Source of the DNA: an uncultured Erysipelotrichaceae bacterium
GTDB lineage: Bacteria > Bacillota_I > Bacilli_A > Erysipelotrichales > Erysipelotrichaceae
Assembly (NCBI GenBank): GCA_944325685.1
Contig: CALVBC010000002.1
Location: 1 to 64,000, forward strand
Direction: 5' to 3'
DNA length: 64,000 nt
Program-made: the position numbers and the translations under genes
Shown here: positions 7,093 to 16,639 of the stretch, one piece after another
Layout of the letters: every line of letters starts with the position of its first letter
Numbering within the stretch: position 1 is the first letter of the stretch
The notes under the pieces: generated by a model
Told to the model about the DNA's origin: nothing
What the model saw: only the letters and a program-made list of their open reading frames with translations
The model's database searches: none

Positions 7093-8310
7093 TTATTCGA
7101 AGAAAGGATCATCATCATCCTTTCTTTTTTTAGATGCTTTCTTCTCTTTTTTAGCTTGCCGCATCGCACTTCCTTCGCGAAGGATCTTACTGTAGACTTC
7201 CTTCCACATCGCGGCGATATGCTCTCTAGCGTAGTAGTCACTACCCTTTTTCGCCTTCCTTTTAGCTTCTAGATAATAGTCTTTATCATCTTTGAGCTTT
7301 TGTAGTTCCCTCTTAAAGCCCTCATTATCATCGGCTTTAAGATAGAAATCAAAGAGGATATCAGGATAGATATCTAAGTCTCTTATGAGGATCGGTCTTT
7401 CCGCACTCATCGCTTCTAGGATCGACATCGGGAATAATTCGGCATATGATGGCAAAAACATCACATCGCCCATATTGTAGATGTCGTTCATCTTCTCGCG
7501 GTCGACGATACCGATGAATTTGAGATTGGCTGGCGGATCTTCGGTTAGCTTTTTGATCTCATCATGACCTGCGGATATTAGGCCAAATGAGAAGCCACCG
7601 GCCCAGACAAACTGGATATCCGGCATCGCTTTAGCGATCTCATAGAAATCAGTGACCCCTTTTCTGGTCTGTAATTGACCAACACCTAAGACGGTAAAGC
7701 GATCAGGATCTAAGCCATAGCTTTCTTTGATCGCTTTGACTCTTTCTTCTTCTAGTGGTCTAAAGGTCTCGTGATTTACAAAGTTCGGTATATAGAAGAT
7801 ATTCTCGCGGTCAATACCATAGCTTACTAAAGGCTCGATAAAACACGGATTGACGACGACAAGATAATCCATCAATTTATAAAACTGGATCGTATAGAAA
7901 TCATAGATATCACGGATAAAGTTGGGAAGATCTAATGATTCATCAACGGTTTCCGGTAAAAAATGGACATAGCCTAGAGTAAAGCTCTCTAATTTCTTAT
8001 TCGCTAATCCAACAAGGAATTCAGGATTATAGGTATGATAATGGACGATATCCGCTTTCGCACTGGCGTTTATCAGTACATCATAATCATCGGCCAATAA
8101 TTCCTTGACTAAAGCCACCTGTTCTTCATAGACAGCTAAAACGCCCTGTCCTTTGACCATATCAGCCCTTGACATCATATTGATGATGGGCTTAGTCGAT
8201 AGGCTTTCTTTGTGTTCTTTGACAACTTGTTTATTAGCGATCCTATCAGCTTGATGGCTCTCTTTTTTCTTGATCAAATCTTTGATCTTTTCTTCGGCGC
8301 TTTTTTCCAT
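7093..8310 (-). CDS. GT4 glycosyltransferase, likely second sugar of a glyco-diacylglycerol (CpoA/BgsA/DGS-like)
   Basis: It probably adds a second sugar to monoglucosyl-diacylglycerol, making the membrane diglycosyl lipid that can anchor lipoteichoic acid. The 405-residue protein has a basic N-terminal extension (1-40), then INMMSRADMVKGQGVLAVYEEQ, which resembles the start of streptococcal CpoA and enterococcal BgsA as I remember them. The Rossmann donor domain follows (VLGVGQLQTRKGVTDFYEIA), with the EX7E motif in ELFPMSILEAM. The C-terminus (from about 380) is a Lys-rich tail, likely membrane-surface binding. The start at ATG 8308-8310 has AGGTGAT upstream. It is the last gene of an operon with a first-sugar transferase, which is the main reason for the assignment; the sugar itself is not known. 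Confidence 0.8.
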   Translation of the reverse strand: MEKSAEEKIKDLIKKKESHQADRIANKQVVKEHKESLSTKPIINMMSRADMVKGQGVLAVYEEQVALVKELLADDYDVLINASAKADIVHYHTYNPEFLVGLANKKLESFTLGYVHFLPETVDESLDLPNFIRDIYDFYTIQFYKLMDYLVVVNPCFIEPLVSYGIDRENIFYIPNFVNHETFRPLEEERVKAIKESYGLDPDRFTVLGVGQLQTRKGVTDFYEIAKAMPDIQFVWAGGFSFGLISAGHDEIKKLTEDPPANLKFIGIVDREKMNDIYNMGDVMFLPSYAELFPMSILEAMSAERPILIRDLDIYPDILFDFYLKADDNEGFKRELQKLKDDKDYYLEAKRKAKKGSDYYAREHIAAMWKEVYSKILREGSAMRQAKKEKKASKKRKDDDDPFFE

Positions 8311-8317
8311 AGATCAC

Positions 8318-9256
8318 CTACTTCTTATACTTGTAGAATTGACGATTGTCAAGCGCAAATAGCTTCGGTGTGAATTCACCTGGTCCGATATTCTCTAATG
8401 CCTTAGAGATCGTATTGATCCTGGCATCGATATTATCGACAAGATATAATAGCTCTGCTTCTAGAGTCATCGGTCTTACTGGTGAGCCATATTCAAGTTG
8501 ACCATGATGTGATAAGACCATATGCCTTAAGATCAAGAATTCTTCGGTATCCTCTAATTTTAGCTCTTTAGCAACTTCGTATAAGCGACCCTGTAAGATC
8601 GAGATATGGCCTAAGAGCTTCCCTTCGGTAGTATATTCAGTGACAATCGGCGATGATAGCTCTTCGATCTTACCGAGATCGTGGATTATTATGCCAGCGA
8701 CAAGATAGTCCTTATCAACACTAGGATAGTACTCCGCTAAAGCTAAGCCCACTTTTAGCATCCCTAAGACATGCGTAGCCAGACCACCCATAAAGGAATG
8801 GTGGATCTTACTAGCAGCTGGATATTCATAAAATGATTCACTGTAGTGATTTAATAAAGCGACCACGAATTTAGCGATATTCTCATTTTGGATGCGATTG
8901 ATCACATCCTGTAGTTCATGGCGCATCTCATCTTTAGCGATCGGTGATTTAAAGATGAAGTCTTCCTTATTGATCTCCGATTGGATCAAAGGAAAGACCT
9001 TGACGATCTTGAGTTGGAGATTATTGCGATAATTGATCACATCAAATTCAAATTGATAGACCTTACCAACTTCAAGTTCCTTTTCGATCTCAGGTTTTAC
9101 ATCCCAGACCTTAGCTTCGATACTCTTGGAATCATCTTGTAAAGACAAGGTCAAATATGGTGAACCAGAATTGGTCGCTCCTTTTGTAATACTTGTAACA
9201 AGTAGTGGGAGATCTAAATGTTCTCCTTCTTTATAATCGATAACTTTTTTACTCAT
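8318..9256 (-). CDS. yhaM: YhaM-type 3'-5' exoribonuclease (OB fold plus HD domain)
   Basis: YhaM is a metal-dependent 3'-5' exonuclease acting on RNA ends and single-stranded DNA in Firmicutes. The start is set at ATG 9254-9256 (MSKKVIDYKEGEHL), with GGAG nine bases upstream; a longer frame to 9295 lies within the previous gene. The 312-residue length fits. The N-terminal OB fold is seen at about 10-95 (SPYLTLSLQDDSKSIEAKVWDV). The HD phosphohydrolase domain follows, with HHSFMGGLATHVLGM, the metal-binding pair in IIIHDLGKIEEL and LSHHGQLEYGSP. It overlaps the glycosyltransferase-RecX gene by eight bases and is seven bases ahead of the GT4 gene, so a nuclease sits inside a glycolipid operon. 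Confidence 0.9.
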   Translation of the reverse strand: MSKKVIDYKEGEHLDLPLLVTSITKGATNSGSPYLTLSLQDDSKSIEAKVWDVKPEIEKELEVGKVYQFEFDVINYRNNLQLKIVKVFPLIQSEINKEDFIFKSPIAKDEMRHELQDVINRIQNENIAKFVVALLNHYSESFYEYPAASKIHHSFMGGLATHVLGMLKVGLALAEYYPSVDKDYLVAGIIIHDLGKIEELSSPIVTEYTTEGKLLGHISILQGRLYEVAKELKLEDTEEFLILRHMVLSHHGQLEYGSPVRPMTLEAELLYLVDNIDARINTISKALENIGPGEFTPKLFALDNRQFYKYKK

Positions 9257-11234
9257 CTTTCCACTCCATTTCATTGATGATAGCATATATATCATCGTAA
9301 TTAAATCCTTTAGCAGCTAATGAACGGAAGACCCTGTTCCTAAGTTCTGTGCCACTGTATTTGCGCATATAGTGTTTCTTTTGTTTAAGGGCTTCTTTGC
9401 GTAAGGTGATATCTTCACGCAAGATATCTTCACTCATATCCAAGCTTTCGATCGCTCTTTTGACGATGTCGCTACTAAAGCCATCAGTCAACAGTTTACG
9501 ATAGATAGCATCTTTTTTGGCTTTTAGTGACTTGCCTTTGATCGTGCTTTGATAGTAATAAGCCCTTTTTAAAGCCTTCTTATATTCTTCATCGCCATCA
9601 TCGCTTATGACCTTAGCGATGATCTCATCAGCGATATGGACCTTTTTGAGATTAGATATCATCTTATTGCGTGAGAAGAATTTCGAAGAGAATAAGGATA
9701 TCTTGGAGATAGCATATTGATAATCATCTAATAGGCCCTTTTCGATGAGCTTGCTTATGATCTCATCTTGTTTAGTATCGATGATCATAAATTTATCCTT
9801 AAGATACTCGCGCATCTCATAGATACTGTAATCACGACTGGCAAGTCTTGCCAAACAAGCCCGATAGGCCTTCGTATCCATTTCTTTTTCCTTTAATTCC
9901 TTGACGACTTCTTCTTTGATCTTGGTGTTTTTTCTAAGGCCCATATTATAGAAATTATCTAAGGAAACGATGACTTCTTCACTTTCCTTGTTGCCTTTTT
10001 CTAAAGTTACGATGACATAGTCGCTTTTGAGCTTAGTCTCTTTTAAAGTAAAGTAGTGACTATACTCTTCGATCGCTTCATCATATACCTTTAAGATCTT
10101 GTCGCAAAAGACGTCGGCATCATATTCACTGGCGATCTTTTCACCCACATCTGCCATCTTTTTTCTGGTATCTTTATCTAACACATGGAAGGCAAGTAGC
10201 TTATCAGCTAATTCACTTGCCCCATCAAAGTAAAAACCATTTTCACCTTCTTGGATAAGGTCTTCCGTTGATTCATCATGTCTAGCAAAAACGACAAGGC
10301 CTGAAGCCATGGCTTCAACATAGGTCATGCCCTGTGTTTCACTGGTCGATGCGCTTACAAAGGCATCGGCACTGTGATAGTAATGAGGAACGAGATCAAA
10401 TGGCCTCTTATTACCAAAGTAGATATAGTCTTCTAGATCTTGTGTTTTAACGCTTTGGACTAATTCATCAAGTTGAGGTCCACCACCGATGATGACAAGC
10501 TTCATCGGTGCCTTCTTCTCTTTTAAGATCTTAAAGGCCTCAATGAGCATCTCTAAAGACTTCTCTTGGGCGATCCGACCGACATAAAGGATGAGCTCTT
10601 GGCCTTCCTTTAAGCCGACTTCCTCTTTGACCTTTTGGATATCTTCTTCTGTTGAAGTCTCCTTTTTAAAGCGATAGAGCTCAGTCCCGGTTGGGATGAT
10701 GGCAATATCGGTCTTTACCCCATAGCGCAATAACATCTCCTTGGTCTTTTTACTAGGAGATATCATCTTTGTCGCTCGATCAGCAAAGACCTTGGTAAGA
10801 CTAGCGACGAGCTTTTTAGCATAGCTATCGATCACATCGAGGTCTAAGAAATTGACATAGTGCGTATAGTCTTCATAGGTCGTATGATAAGTCCTGACGA
10901 CTGGTAGATCAAACTTCGCCGCACACATCTCGGCAAAGATCCCTACCCCGAATTCCGTATGCACATGGATAAGATCGAGGCCGAGCTTTTCGATATCTTC
11001 ATATAGTAAAGGATGTAATGGTGTCGTTACAGCATAGCCATATAATTTCTTGATCTCAAGGCCTGGTAATCTGATGATATTACCTTCCTTTACGACCTTT
11101 AAGACACCAGGATATGTACAGATGACATATACATCATGCCCTCTTTCCTCTAGTTTTTTACGTAATAGTTCAACGGATGTCACAACTCCGTTGATATCTG
11201 GTAGATATGTATCTGAAAATAGACCGATCCTCAT
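9249..11234 (-). CDS. Diacylglycerol glucosyltransferase (GT4) fused to RecX
   Basis: One intact 661-residue frame carries two unrelated proteins. Residues 1-395 are a GT4 enzyme of the 1,2-diacylglycerol 3-glucosyltransferase type (alMGS/BgsB/LafA group): MRIGLFSDTYLPDINGVVTS, LIHVHTEFGVGIFAE, VVRTYHTTYEDYTHY, YVGRIAQEKSLEMLI and the EX7E pair Glu299/Glu307 in SETQGMTYVEAM. Residues about 402-661 match a full-length RecX, the modulator of RecA filaments. It has a short beta region (DYVIVTLEKG...SLDNFYNMGLRKNTKI) and three-helix repeats such as LARLASRDYSIYEMREYL, LIEKGLLDDYQYA and KGFNYDDIYAIINE. No internal ribosome site was evident near residue 400, but separate production of RecX cannot be excluded. 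The start overlaps the upstream gene by ATGA. Confidence 0.88.
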   Translation of the reverse strand: MRIGLFSDTYLPDINGVVTSVELLRKKLEERGHDVYVICTYPGVLKVVKEGNIIRLPGLEIKKLYGYAVTTPLHPLLYEDIEKLGLDLIHVHTEFGVGIFAEMCAAKFDLPVVRTYHTTYEDYTHYVNFLDLDVIDSYAKKLVASLTKVFADRATKMISPSKKTKEMLLRYGVKTDIAIIPTGTELYRFKKETSTEEDIQKVKEEVGLKEGQELILYVGRIAQEKSLEMLIEAFKILKEKKAPMKLVIIGGGPQLDELVQSVKTQDLEDYIYFGNKRPFDLVPHYYHSADAFVSASTSETQGMTYVEAMASGLVVFARHDESTEDLIQEGENGFYFDGASELADKLLAFHVLDKDTRKKMADVGEKIASEYDADVFCDKILKVYDEAIEEYSHYFTLKETKLKSDYVIVTLEKGNKESEEVIVSLDNFYNMGLRKNTKIKEEVVKELKEKEMDTKAYRACLARLASRDYSIYEMREYLKDKFMIIDTKQDEIISKLIEKGLLDDYQYAISKISLFSSKFFSRNKMISNLKKVHIADEIIAKVISDDGDEEYKKALKRAYYYQSTIKGKSLKAKKDAIYRKLLTDGFSSDIVKRAIESLDMSEDILREDITLRKEALKQKKHYMRKYSGTELRNRVFRSLAAKGFNYDDIYAIINEMEWKDE

Positions 11235-12271
11235 TCTTTCACCTTCTTTAATTTAATGTATAAAAATAGTACAGCACCGATCGCCATGACGAGATAATAA
11301 GTCACAAACCGCCACAGCAACATACCAGCACTGGCAACTGTCTGACCAAAGAGATTACCAAACATAAGGACAAAGATCATCTCTGTCCCACCACTGGCCC
11401 CTGGTATCGGGATCATACTGGAAGTGATCGCGACAAAACTGCCCATCGCGATACAATCGATCAGTATGCCAAGATCGACATCTTGACCCATCGCCACAAA
11501 GACAAAGAAAGGCACCGAATAATAGATGAGTAAGCGCAAGATATTCATAAAGAACGCTAAGACGATCTTGCCTTTATGATCTTTAAAATTACCGACTTCA
11601 TTTCTAAAACGCTCTAGTTGGACTTCGATATTCTGGATGGCCTTTTCTGGGTCTTTGACGACATGTAATTTGACACCGATATAGACACCTTTATTTTTGA
11701 TCCAATCATGGAGCTTTTTGAATTTCGCTAAAGCGATCAAGAAAGCGATGACTGAGCCGTTGATGATAAAGCCTAAGATGACAAATAGGAATAAACTGGA
11801 ATAGTTGGAATAGAAGTCATTGAATCTGATGATGATAAAGAAGGCACTGATAAAGGTCAGAGTGATCTGATAGATGATGAATTCGATCCATAAGATACTA
11901 CCAGCATCACCTGTATCGACTTTTTGCTTTTTAAAGACGTAGAATTGCGCGATCTGACCACCGCTTGCCGATGGAGTGATCCCATGGAACAAGGCAGCTA
12001 CTAAGACGTTGATATAGCCATCGATGACCTTATACTTAGGATGAGAGATCCTAGTTAAGACTACTAAGATCAGACCGATCACAAATTGCCACAATAAGAC
12101 GATAAAGATGACCAAGATGATATCCGTTATATCGATCATTTTCAAGACATCGACGATCCCTTCGCCTCCTATACCAAACGATAAGGCGATCATCAAAACA
12201 CCGATCAAGATGATAAAGATCGCATTGACGAGGTAATTACTGAAGATGCTCTTTTTCTGTTTCTCTGCCAT
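11231..12271 (-). CDS. UPF0104 / flippase-like integral membrane protein
   Basis: This is a 346-residue protein with about eight membrane segments, belonging to the family that includes the membrane part of lysylphosphatidylglycerol synthase (MprF) but without the catalytic domain. Features include the N-terminal segment FIILIGVLMIALSFGIGGEG, the family block FHGITPSASGGQIAQFYVFKK (about 93-113) and PIPGASGGTEMIFV (about 287-300). A role in moving lipids across the membrane is plausible because the gene sits directly before the glucosyl-diacylglycerol synthase, overlapping it by four bases (ATGA), but that role is inferred. Similar neighbours occur around glycolipid genes in other Firmicutes. 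The start overlaps the upstream stop by one base. Confidence 0.82.
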   Translation of the reverse strand: MAEKQKKSIFSNYLVNAIFIILIGVLMIALSFGIGGEGIVDVLKMIDITDIILVIFIVLLWQFVIGLILVVLTRISHPKYKVIDGYINVLVAALFHGITPSASGGQIAQFYVFKKQKVDTGDAGSILWIEFIIYQITLTFISAFFIIIRFNDFYSNYSSLFLFVILGFIINGSVIAFLIALAKFKKLHDWIKNKGVYIGVKLHVVKDPEKAIQNIEVQLERFRNEVGNFKDHKGKIVLAFFMNILRLLIYYSVPFFVFVAMGQDVDLGILIDCIAMGSFVAITSSMIPIPGASGGTEMIFVLMFGNLFGQTVASAGMLLWRFVTYYLVMAIGAVLFLYIKLKKVKE

Positions 12272-12892: not shown

Positions 12893-15800
12893 TTACTTAG
12901 CTTTAGTATCAACGATCATGAATTTATAAACACAAGCACCTAACTCTTCAGAATATATTACATCCTTGCTGAATTCCTTTTGACACTCAGCGGTATTAGA
13001 TGGTTCATCTTCTTCGTCCTTTACAGGTGGATTAGGCTTTGATGGATCAGGTGTATCAGATGGACTTGAGATTTTAACAAATCTAACTTCGATAGTATGG
13101 TCTTTGTCGACGTTTTCTATCTTATATGAAGATACAGCACCTACTGACTTGCCATCCAACAATACATCAGAAATCTTATATCCTGAATCTGCACTCATAG
13201 TGAATTCTATATCGCCACCTTCTGTCACTGTAACGCTTCCACTTGGGGATATCGTGCCACCTTCACTTGCTTTAGCGGTTATTGTATAAGCTTTAGACTC
13301 CCATACGATCGCAAATGGACTAAATCCAGCGCGATCAACATCGAATTTGATATAGTTATCGGTAAATTCAACTGTCATTTCTTCGATTTCACATTTTGCT
13401 ATAGCTTCCTCTACTTTATCTTGACCTGAAATACCGTATTCACGATGCAAACCTTTATAATGAAGTACCTTCATATCTACACTTTTAGCTTCTTCTTTTG
13501 TCATTCCATTAGGATATGGTAAATATACTGTCATTCCATATTCGGCGGATACCCAAGCATTCCCGTTATGTGCGTCTACTAGGTCCAAATAGTGGAAATC
13601 AAAAGAATACTCTTTACATTCTTCTGCTTTACCCAATATATCGATTGCTTTTTGTTCTAGTAGCTCTTGACGGTTATCACCTTCATTAACTAAAAGGCTA
13701 TCATCTAAAATCTGGATACCTGATGGATCGGCAACACGATCCTCATCATTATTAATATAGAATTCAGGGTCAGTTGTTCCAGAATACCCGCCTTTTTTAG
13801 CCATTGCGTATGTTGCTGGTTCCGTTGGTTCTTCTAGAATATGTGTTATATCACAGTTTTTTGCATCTTCGATGTCTTTTATATATCTAACAATGAGTTT
13901 TCCGCCATCACCTAAGATGACCTCATTCCCATTGATTCGTATATCACTACTTTTAATTCCATCTATCCACGAAAATGTCGCAACATACTCACCAGGGGAA
14001 GCATCATTGTCTACGATGTTACCATTTAATTCATAAGTTACATCTAATAATTCTAATAGTTGATCTTGAAGAGTTTTATCTTCAGTGACTTTTTTATCTT
14101 CCCCTCTGACAGTTAGACTAGTAATTTGATCAACACAATTATATAAAGTTACCTTAGGAAAACCTCCACTTTCATAATTCTCACTTCCTTGTCCACCACC
14201 TGTGTAGATTGTTATATCATCTGGATTTAAGGTATATTCATTGTTATTAACAAACATAAAAGCATACGCTGTTCCGTCTTCCAAATCACGAAGTGTAATA
14301 TCTAATATCTCTTGATTATTTACTTCCTCGAGATTGATAAGCTTTGCATCGGGATCGATTGAGCCGTCATCATTTACTGGTATATATGCAATAAATAAAC
14401 CTGTTTTTTTAGCATTCTCTGGTCTAGTTACTTGAAAATGATATTCGTCCGAATTCGTTTTGATCCAATAAGCATCTTCACCTATTACTTTCCAATCAGG
14501 ATGTCTCTCTGATATCCTTTCTTGAATAACATATGCTGCATCTGGATTTTTAGCGTAAGCAATAGCTACTTCCTCATGATTATCATCTAGAGTTATTGTT
14601 CCTAAAGTGCGATTTAGAGGTATCACCCCTAATAAAGAGTCATATCCACGTTCAACTAGGATTGTATTTTCCCCTAATTTAACTTCATCACCAATTAATA
14701 AAAAATCATTTTTATTGTCCGGATATACATTCGGGGAATCCCCAAAGTCATTATAAACGTGTAACTGAGCTGTATCATTTCCATAAATAGATCCACCTAA
14801 TAATTGAACACTAGAATCTCCCCCTATCGCATAATCAACACCAAAAGCACCATTATCTGCGATTGTTCCTCCATTCATAATAAATGTTGCATTTACACTG
14901 TTAGTTTTACCGCTTACTTGAATTCCACTTCCTTTATTTCTGGATATCTCACCTCCGTTCATAGTAAGAAGAGAGCCATTATTAACTCGAAACGCTAGAC
15001 TTTTATTGTCAACGATGTGGGCTGTAACTTCAATAGTAGCTTGCGGTTGACCACCACCTTGGTTAGCTAAATATACAATACCTTTAAACGCGCTGTTGTT
15101 ACATATCGTTCCAGCAAATGTATAATGAGAACCGTTATTAGAATAAATAAGGCCCCCGGCATTACTGGAAGAACAATTTTTAATTATACTATTTTTCCCA
15201 AATGTTACTTGACCATACCACGATCTAATTAACCATGCGGAATCACTTTTACAATCGCGAATCACCCCATCAAATAACACTTCATGTGAGTAATCATTCC
15301 CTAAATCATCAAAATATAATAAGGGTACTCTGTTCACGTCTGATATTTCTGAATCTTTTTGCGCAGTAAAATTACAAAATTGGGTCCAAATAGCACTTTT
15401 TTCATGATTGTTACTTGTGATGCTAGTTATTTTCCCACTTGATAGCAGAGTTGCCTCACCACCGCCACGTAAATGAATAGCTATGCCGTCTTGTCCCTGC
15501 CACATTGCATCAGAACCTTTTATATTTTGAATTGTTCCACCGAGATTAGCTTCCCCATTATCAATATAAACTGCTCGTCCATTCATTGTTACACCATCAG
15601 CAGCGCCAATTATTCCTCCGTTCATAGTGACAATTCCACTTTGCACCCATATAGCTCCGGCAGGACCAAAATTACCAGTCTCACCCTTAATACGTTCCCA
15701 TTCATTTGTATCTACGATTTGGCTTCCTTTTTCCATGATTAGTTCACCACCTGATATCCGAATAGCCGACATACCACCATAATCCTTTAGTACAGCTCCG

Positions 15801-16639
15801 TCGCCTAAAGTTATCTTACCAGTGCCATTGTATGTAGCAATCATCGCATCTTGAACAATGTCAGCATTATTCACTGTATATGATTTTTCTACATCTTTAC
15901 CGTTCTCTTTTTCAGTATATGTAATCGTTGTTTGTCCATCACCTTCAGAATCTGCTTGAACAAAGTGTGTTCCTACTTTTTTAAACCCATCATCTAAAGT
16001 TATATTTTCTAAACGCAAAGATGCCACTATTCCTTGATTTGTAGTTCCTCCAACTTCTATCATTGCCGGATTGTAGACTTTTCTAGCTGGATCACTTGAT
16101 GTATTAAAATTATCAGCACGACTGACTATATGTCCATTGCCATTTACTGTTATATGCTTATTCCATACACCAATTTTAGTGCTGAGAGTAATATCAGACA
16201 ATAAATATATCATTCCATTATTTTCAACCTCTCCTATTGCTTTATCTAATGTTTGAAAAGGCTGATCTTCACTTCCTGTATTCTCATCGTTGCCTTCACT
16301 TGAAACATAAACGACGCTATGATCCTGACTCAATAGAGCTACTTCATTTTCTAGTGATGTAATCTCTTGTACTTCTTCCGGTATTGGCTCATCGGTAGTA
16401 ATCGTATCTGTGGTTTCGCTCGGCTTTATCTCTTCACCCTCTGTATCATCAACAATTTCTTTATCAGTCTCATCTTCAGAAGTGTCCTCTGTTATTTCAG
16501 TTTCGGTAACATCTTCAGTTTCTTCGGTCGTAATGATCTCTTCAGTCGTTTCATCGCCCTCGTCAGCTAGTGTTGATATTGGAAATGATCCAACAAGTAA
16601 CAATAATGATAATGTTGAAATAAAGAATCTTTTGAACAT
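12893..16639 (-). CDS. Large secreted beta-helix surface protein
   Basis: This 1248-residue exported protein has unknown function; adhesion or host interaction is a guess. The order is: signal peptide (1-25, cleaved near STLADE); a Thr/Glu/Asp-rich stalk (27-105); a right-handed beta-helix region (about 108-650) beginning VVYVSSEGNDENTGSEDQPF and full of MNGGEI/MNGGTI turns; linker modules; an InlB-B-like repeat (YTITAKASEGGTISPSG...HTIEVRF); a Pro/Asp linker; and a C-terminal Cys pair (TAECQKEF...ELGACVYKFMIVDTKAK). There is no LPXTG motif or membrane anchor, so the mode of cell attachment is unclear; the Cys-containing tail may matter. Base composition differs: GATC occurs twice in 14401-15000 against twelve times in 36781-37380, hinting at recent acquisition. 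AGAGGGG lies six bases before the ATG. Expression may depend on read-through of the terminator just upstream. Confidence 0.85.
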   Translation of the reverse strand: MFKRFFISTLSLLLLVGSFPISTLADEGDETTEEIITTEETEDVTETEITEDTSEDETDKEIVDDTEGEEIKPSETTDTITTDEPIPEEVQEITSLENEVALLSQDHSVVYVSSEGNDENTGSEDQPFQTLDKAIGEVENNGMIYLLSDITLSTKIGVWNKHITVNGNGHIVSRADNFNTSSDPARKVYNPAMIEVGGTTNQGIVASLRLENITLDDGFKKVGTHFVQADSEGDGQTTITYTEKENGKDVEKSYTVNNADIVQDAMIATYNGTGKITLGDGAVLKDYGGMSAIRISGGELIMEKGSQIVDTNEWERIKGETGNFGPAGAIWVQSGIVTMNGGIIGAADGVTMNGRAVYIDNGEANLGGTIQNIKGSDAMWQGQDGIAIHLRGGGEATLLSSGKITSITSNNHEKSAIWTQFCNFTAQKDSEISDVNRVPLLYFDDLGNDYSHEVLFDGVIRDCKSDSAWLIRSWYGQVTFGKNSIIKNCSSSNAGGLIYSNNGSHYTFAGTICNNSAFKGIVYLANQGGGQPQATIEVTAHIVDNKSLAFRVNNGSLLTMNGGEISRNKGSGIQVSGKTNSVNATFIMNGGTIADNGAFGVDYAIGGDSSVQLLGGSIYGNDTAQLHVYNDFGDSPNVYPDNKNDFLLIGDEVKLGENTILVERGYDSLLGVIPLNRTLGTITLDDNHEEVAIAYAKNPDAAYVIQERISERHPDWKVIGEDAYWIKTNSDEYHFQVTRPENAKKTGLFIAYIPVNDDGSIDPDAKLINLEEVNNQEILDITLRDLEDGTAYAFMFVNNNEYTLNPDDITIYTGGGQGSENYESGGFPKVTLYNCVDQITSLTVRGEDKKVTEDKTLQDQLLELLDVTYELNGNIVDNDASPGEYVATFSWIDGIKSSDIRINGNEVILGDGGKLIVRYIKDIEDAKNCDITHILEEPTEPATYAMAKKGGYSGTTDPEFYINNDEDRVADPSGIQILDDSLLVNEGDNRQELLEQKAIDILGKAEECKEYSFDFHYLDLVDAHNGNAWVSAEYGMTVYLPYPNGMTKEEAKSVDMKVLHYKGLHREYGISGQDKVEEAIAKCEIEEMTVEFTDNYIKFDVDRAGFSPFAIVWESKAYTITAKASEGGTISPSGSVTVTEGGDIEFTMSADSGYKISDVLLDGKSVGAVSSYKIENVDKDHTIEVRFVKISSPSDTPDPSKPNPPVKDEEDEPSNTAECQKEFSKDVIYSEELGACVYKFMIVDTKAK

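Follow-up and report, generated by a model that had tools for sequence, protein, structure and literature searches.

The window, a stretch of 64,000 nucleotides from an uncultured Erysipelotrichaceae bacterium, carries on its minus strand a single intact ATG-to-stop frame of 661 codons (9249-11234) that joins a glycosyltransferase (GT) of family GT4 to RecX, as a first-pass annotation had proposed. The gene and its neighbors are as follows.

7093-8310, minus strand: second GT4 glycosyltransferase, closest to the LTA glycolipid-anchor IagA/BgsA family (146.9 bits, cut-off 460)
8318-9295, minus strand: yhaM, 3'-5' exoribonuclease family (open reading frame; NF010007)
9249-11234, minus strand: fused gene, GT4 glycolipid synthase plus RecX, 661 aa (Pfam, NCBIfam, AlphaFold)
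9252-10055, minus strand: RecX domain, residues 394-661, an N-terminal beta subdomain (394-440) followed by helical repeats (profiles, AlphaFold, structure alignment)
10041-10073, minus strand: junction, residues 388-398, where GT helix 373-392 passes into RecX strand 394-402 (model; ribosome-site scan)
10059-11234, minus strand: GT4 domain with GT-B fold, residues 1-392 (Pfam, structure comparison, residue conservation)
11231-12271, minus strand: flippase-like membrane protein (TIGR00374 / PF03706), directly upstream, a conserved neighbor (Pfam, NCBIfam, locus comparison)

The longest yhaM open reading frame overlaps the fused gene by 47 nt, and alignment to NF010007 (from residue 14) places the likely yhaM start near 9256, for an 8-nt overlap with the fusion stop. 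The two frames overlap, and yhaM directly follows the fused gene as first described. Further upstream, a 1248-aa surface-type protein (12893-16639, minus strand) has only a weak InlB B-repeat match.

A domain search, which the first-pass annotation had called for, found GT4 domains in the N-terminal half of the protein and RecX_HTH1 and RecX_HTH3 in the C-terminal half. The GT4 domains lie at residues 14-186 and 199-364 (PF13439, 96.2 bits; PF00534, 112.8 bits). D8, H117, R220, K225, E299 and E307 do not vary across the 37 fused proteins compared, and we take E299, E307, R220 and K225 to be active-site residues on the pattern of the E-x7-E type motif; both GT4 domains and the E-x7-E type residues that mark GT4 membership are present. 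In structure comparison, residues 1-392 aligned with the GT-B enzymes MshA (Z 34.2), PimB' (Z 33.1) and PimA (Z 31.8), the last two of which are phospholipid mannosyltransferases, and a structure search of a viral structure library returned almost nothing except glycosyltransferases. The closest named relative is the alpha-monoglucosyl-diacylglycerol synthase of the Acholeplasma laidlawii MGS type, also GT4, which the protein resembles over residues 1-394, in its GT-B fold and in having a flippase-like gene and a second GT adjoining. It differs from that enzyme in bearing RecX at its C-terminus and in scoring 277.5 bits over residues 1-394 with NCBIfam NF049988 (MGlcDAG synthase), below the curated cut-off of 400. 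At this score, the original name, diacylglycerol glucosyltransferase, describes a family resemblance and goes too far in fixing sugar and acceptor.

In the C-terminal half, RecX_HTH1 (residues 456-481, 26.3 bits) and RecX_HTH3 (615-653, 33.8 bits) both passed the Pfam cut-off of 26. Pfam gave no HTH2 match in this protein, while the profile alignment to RecX structure 3e3v spans that region and Pfam did find HTH2 in a relative (L241). NCBIfam NF010733 (RecX) matched residues 409-657 at profile positions 19-264 of 267 with 94 bits; as this is below the cut-off of 240, we file the half as a RecX-family domain rather than as an NF010733 equivalog. Profile matches to RecX structures were strong (3e3v, E 1.2e-29; 3d5l, 2.2e-24; 3c1d, 1.4e-11). 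When the last 269 residues were modeled alone with AlphaFold (pLDDT 92.4), the model had a RecX fold, aligning to 3d5l with Z 16.1 and 3.8 A over 199 residues, and to 3e3v, 3c1d and 3dfg with Z 13.9, 11.7 and 11.3. The C-terminal part therefore matches RecX by both profile and fold. Since the 3d5l alignment begins at model residue 2, RecX is complete, including its N-terminal part, and the domain boundaries first drawn around a full-length RecX are supported by Pfam, NCBIfam and structural alignment. This RecX shares its completeness and its N-terminal beta subdomain with the RecX of Firmicutes (NF010733; Bacillus subtilis RecX, 264 aa), but unlike them it is not free-standing, falls below the NF010733 cut-off and is joined to a membrane-lipid enzyme.

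The whole-protein AlphaFold model (mean pLDDT 86.8, pTM 0.64) consists of two soundly predicted domains whose mutual orientation the model does not fix. The last GT helix (373-392) runs almost straight into the first RecX strand (394-402), which leaves hardly any linker in the model. The genome, 1.36 Mb in 31 contigs and with a completeness rating of 100%, also encodes RecA. A search of this assembly for a separate recX returned no second copy, the one other match (E 0.018) having an internal stop, so the fused copy is its only RecX.

We looked for the same fusion in relatives. Of 60 genomes from the organism's own lineage, genus, family and order, 53 matched along almost the whole query; the exceptions were G012, G014, G023, G024, G031, G034 and G057, and in G057 a contig edge truncates the locus. 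These counts bear on whether a sequencing or assembly error had simply joined two adjacent genes. Sister lineages do have two overlapping genes at this place. However, the frame is open in 53 of 60 genomes and also in named isolates, among them Dielma fastidiosa, Holdemanella biformis, Bulleidia extructa and Erysipelothrix, which excludes a sequencing join. The fusion is real and, rather than an isolated oddity, is an architecture fixed in most of an order of bacteria from the gut and from animals.

RecX was detected in 153 of 157 genomes of that order. Of the 150 RecX rows listed for them, 136 sit in a frame of 654-794 aa and 10 have RecX by itself; the remaining 4 fall in between: two at contig edges (G057, G148), one with a frame broken in the GT (G085) and one behind a GT stump (G102). 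In a draw of 392 genomes across the phylum, the full-length fusion occurs, among the matches listed, in 52 of the 56 listed order members and in none of the 336 other genomes, 95 of which match over the GT alone. In 198 class genomes, RecX outside the order is a protein of its own, with frames of about 150-320 aa; the one long frame, of 881 aa in G307, contains a 257-aa start-to-stop RecX. Other named carriers are Longicatena caecimuris, Amedibacillus dolichus, Erysipelothrix tonsillarum, E. inopinata, Thomasclavelia saccharogumia and Sharpea azabuensis, and from the named carriers the order is probably Erysipelotrichales. When a contig collection was scanned, the single protein as query gave no matches and alignment A1 as query gave 80 loci. 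A literature search at title and abstract level, with few subscription journals, returned no report of a RecX-glycosyltransferase fusion, and the accessible portions of PMC11676981, PMC3814617, PMC4968806 and PMC8865564 do not mention one. The protein is a lasting union of two known families, old, widely fixed and not met in the literature searched.

The unfused comparison set was drawn from the rest of the class, beyond the order, and comprised 80 RecX loci. At seven of these, from families f8, f10 and f19 (L151, L169, L176, L184, L193, L204 and L212), a strong GT lies directly upstream of recX and overlaps it, the pair being flanked as in the window by a flippase-like gene upstream and yhaM downstream; L158, whose upstream GT is weak (67 bits), was left out of the strong pairs. 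Coordinates compared by eye revealed the same adjacency in more f8 genomes (e.g., G226, G316, G322, G328). The same gene order occurs at L110, on contig CAMBSI010000002.1, which is labeled Staphylococcus epidermidis; it groups with the sister lineages in the GT tree, and the label looks wrong. These sister operons have the same genes, in the same order and with overlapping frames, and differ in encoding two proteins, with recX having its own start.

How that start is placed suggests how the fusion may have arisen. Relative to the GT gene, recX occupies the +1 frame in 9 of 10 unfused pairs compared. Six of the seven unfused operons have a GTG start with a ribosome site, while L212 uses another start. 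In the GTG-type pairs (those six plus L110), recX starts inside the last GT codons, just after E-V-Y, and the GTG is preceded by GAGG in 7 of 7 and by GGAGG in 4 of 7. We considered whether the fused genes still have an internal translation start at the junction and rejected it: a five-base ribosome site with a start was found there in none of 107 distinct fused genes, against 0.56% of 535 control windows, and a four-base site occurred in 9 of 107, which is chance level (9.2% of controls). From sequence, the second half thus appears to have no independent start, as expected of a true fusion that is made as a single polypeptide. In the ancestor, recX, in the +1 frame, would have begun within the 3' end of the GT gene, at a GTG with a GGAGG-like site before it. 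A small indel where the two genes overlapped, in the ancestor of the order, may then have brought both into one frame, and subsequent loss of the internal start and its ribosome site would have left one polypeptide.

A GT tree built from 22 selected order rows and 8 rows of unfused operons placed the two sets on opposite sides with support 95/92, and its four state changes read as one fusion and three reversals (L103, L112, L245). L105, L106, L109, L244 and L246, which are distant, long-branched or of uncertain place, were omitted, and an earlier 70-row GT tree had counted contig-edge fragments (such as L102, L107, L248 and L249) as unfused. The RecX tree contains no single fused clade; it has nine changes, of which starred branches force at least two. 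That tree, built from a thinned and sampled 108 of 204 RecX sequences, is too noisy to speak for a single origin, as RecX evolves fast and several of its end branches are long.

Both halves are under purifying selection, judging from sequence comparison with the nearest relative, G003 (85% identity), where dN was 0.093 in the GT half and 0.101 in the RecX half, with dS of at least 2. We also considered relaxed constraint on the fused RecX and did not see it. Using 131 fused loci with copies kept and 9 unfused operons (36 pairs), including L230, a re-split within the order, we found that RecX divergence per GT divergence was no greater in fused than in unfused genes. At a GT identity of 0.40-0.45, RecX identity was 0.251 fused and 0.252 unfused, and at 0.50-0.55 it was 0.351 and 0.292, with few unfused pairs; when GT identity is matched, conservation of the fused RecX equals or exceeds that of the unfused one. 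With low dN and conservation equal to that of unfused RecX, neither half looks like a passenger.

The halves are nonetheless separable, since each has been lost alone in some descendants. RecX is kept without a close GT in parts of genus g3 and in G031, G034, G118 and G146, a GT is kept with no RecX match in G125, and the two have been re-split at L103 and L112. In G023, an intact RecX sits behind a shortened GT that has lost the catalytic C-domain but still matches the GT N-domain over residues 68-141 (E 7.9e-9). Less surely, G102 has RecX behind a GT stump (8.5 bits, where the best of 1000 shuffles scored 4.9); stumps were scored by profile against shuffles because global alignment was uninformative. 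Other arrangements of these genes were also seen. At L234 in G085, a single 2.9 Mb contig, the GT part is split into two frames and RecX is still open. G141 has a free-standing RecX and a 612-aa GT relative with a C-terminal VTT (DedA-like) domain (L244:4350-6188, minus strand; PF09335, 72.1 bits). Two 650-aa proteins from f8 (L254:3191-5143 and L255:5647-7599, both minus strand) carry the same kind of GT behind about 255 residues of weakly hydrolase-like sequence (Hydrolase_4, E 0.0023). G218 has a flippase-recX-yhaM locus without a GT.

Collectively, the conserved single frame, the unfused overlapping sister state, the lack of an internal start signal, purifying selection, intact predicted folds and secondary losses point to an ancient fusion of two glycolipid-operon neighbors that became fixed in one order, with any regulatory meaning secondary to operon history, and we give this a probability of roughly 0.8. 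Against it stand the RecX tree, which has no single fused clade; the possibility that a protease parts the halves after translation; and the count of only 7 of 80 class loci that keep a GT beside recX, so that the ancestral linkage rests on few families. Most likely, the protein is bifunctional by inheritance, an inner-face glycolipid synthase that has borne RecX since the genes merged, and both halves would keep their family work, inner-face glycolipid synthesis and RecA-filament trimming. Membrane placement is expected because a family member, the A. laidlawii enzyme related to the GT half, is monotopic with an amphipathic helix, according to the accessible part of PMC6506492; RecX would accordingly be carried on a membrane-surface enzyme.

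This placement raises the question of whether the fusion was selected for. The first-pass annotation held that a membrane-lipid enzyme and a RecA regulator have no known link, which is too strong: GT, recX and yhaM are old operon neighbors in sister lineages, and RecA storage structures and bundles of Escherichia coli associate with anionic phospholipids of the inner membrane, as described in the part of PMC6363387 available. The GT could tether RecX to the inner face, where membrane-bound RecA would be disassembled or lipid state tied to recombination. Retention in most of an order, the E. coli RecA structures, the monotopic relative and the intact RecX behind stumps without the catalytic C-domain in G023 and, more weakly, G102 all fit a tether. 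However, ten order members among the 150 rows listed have RecX without the GT, G125 has the GT without RecX, and the stumps may just be decaying. In B. subtilis, RecX-YFP is dispersed and, after damage, is found on the nucleoid with RecA threads (seen in part of PMC3527212), so membrane tethering would break clearly with that pattern. Re-splitting and the loss of one half or the other argue against an obligate GT-RecX link, while order-wide retention and the stumps leave room for one; on balance, we consider selection for a tether unlikely. It is equally doubtful that the order's only RecX is membrane-anchored and acts on lipid-held RecA, in which case glycolipid synthesis and recombination control would share a polypeptide and the stumps would be the anchor.

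Less probable still is that the RecX half is inactive on RecA and has become an accessory domain to the glycolipid synthase. It is less conserved than the GT half (43% versus 60% mean column identity), and its second HTH escaped Pfam in the window protein. Yet for a given GT divergence it has changed no faster than unfused RecX, it is the sole RecX of a genome with RecA, and several lineages have shed the GT and kept RecX.

With an ancient operon fusion as the preferred reading, the locus documents how genes fuse and come apart again, from overlapping unfused relatives through a fused order to re-splits and stumps. An annotation that names one half of the protein misses the other in these genomes. 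In these common gut bacteria, a RecA regulator has been joined naturally to a membrane-lipid enzyme across an order, and the fusion offers a direct handle on whether the reported membrane association of RecA has a regulatory side.
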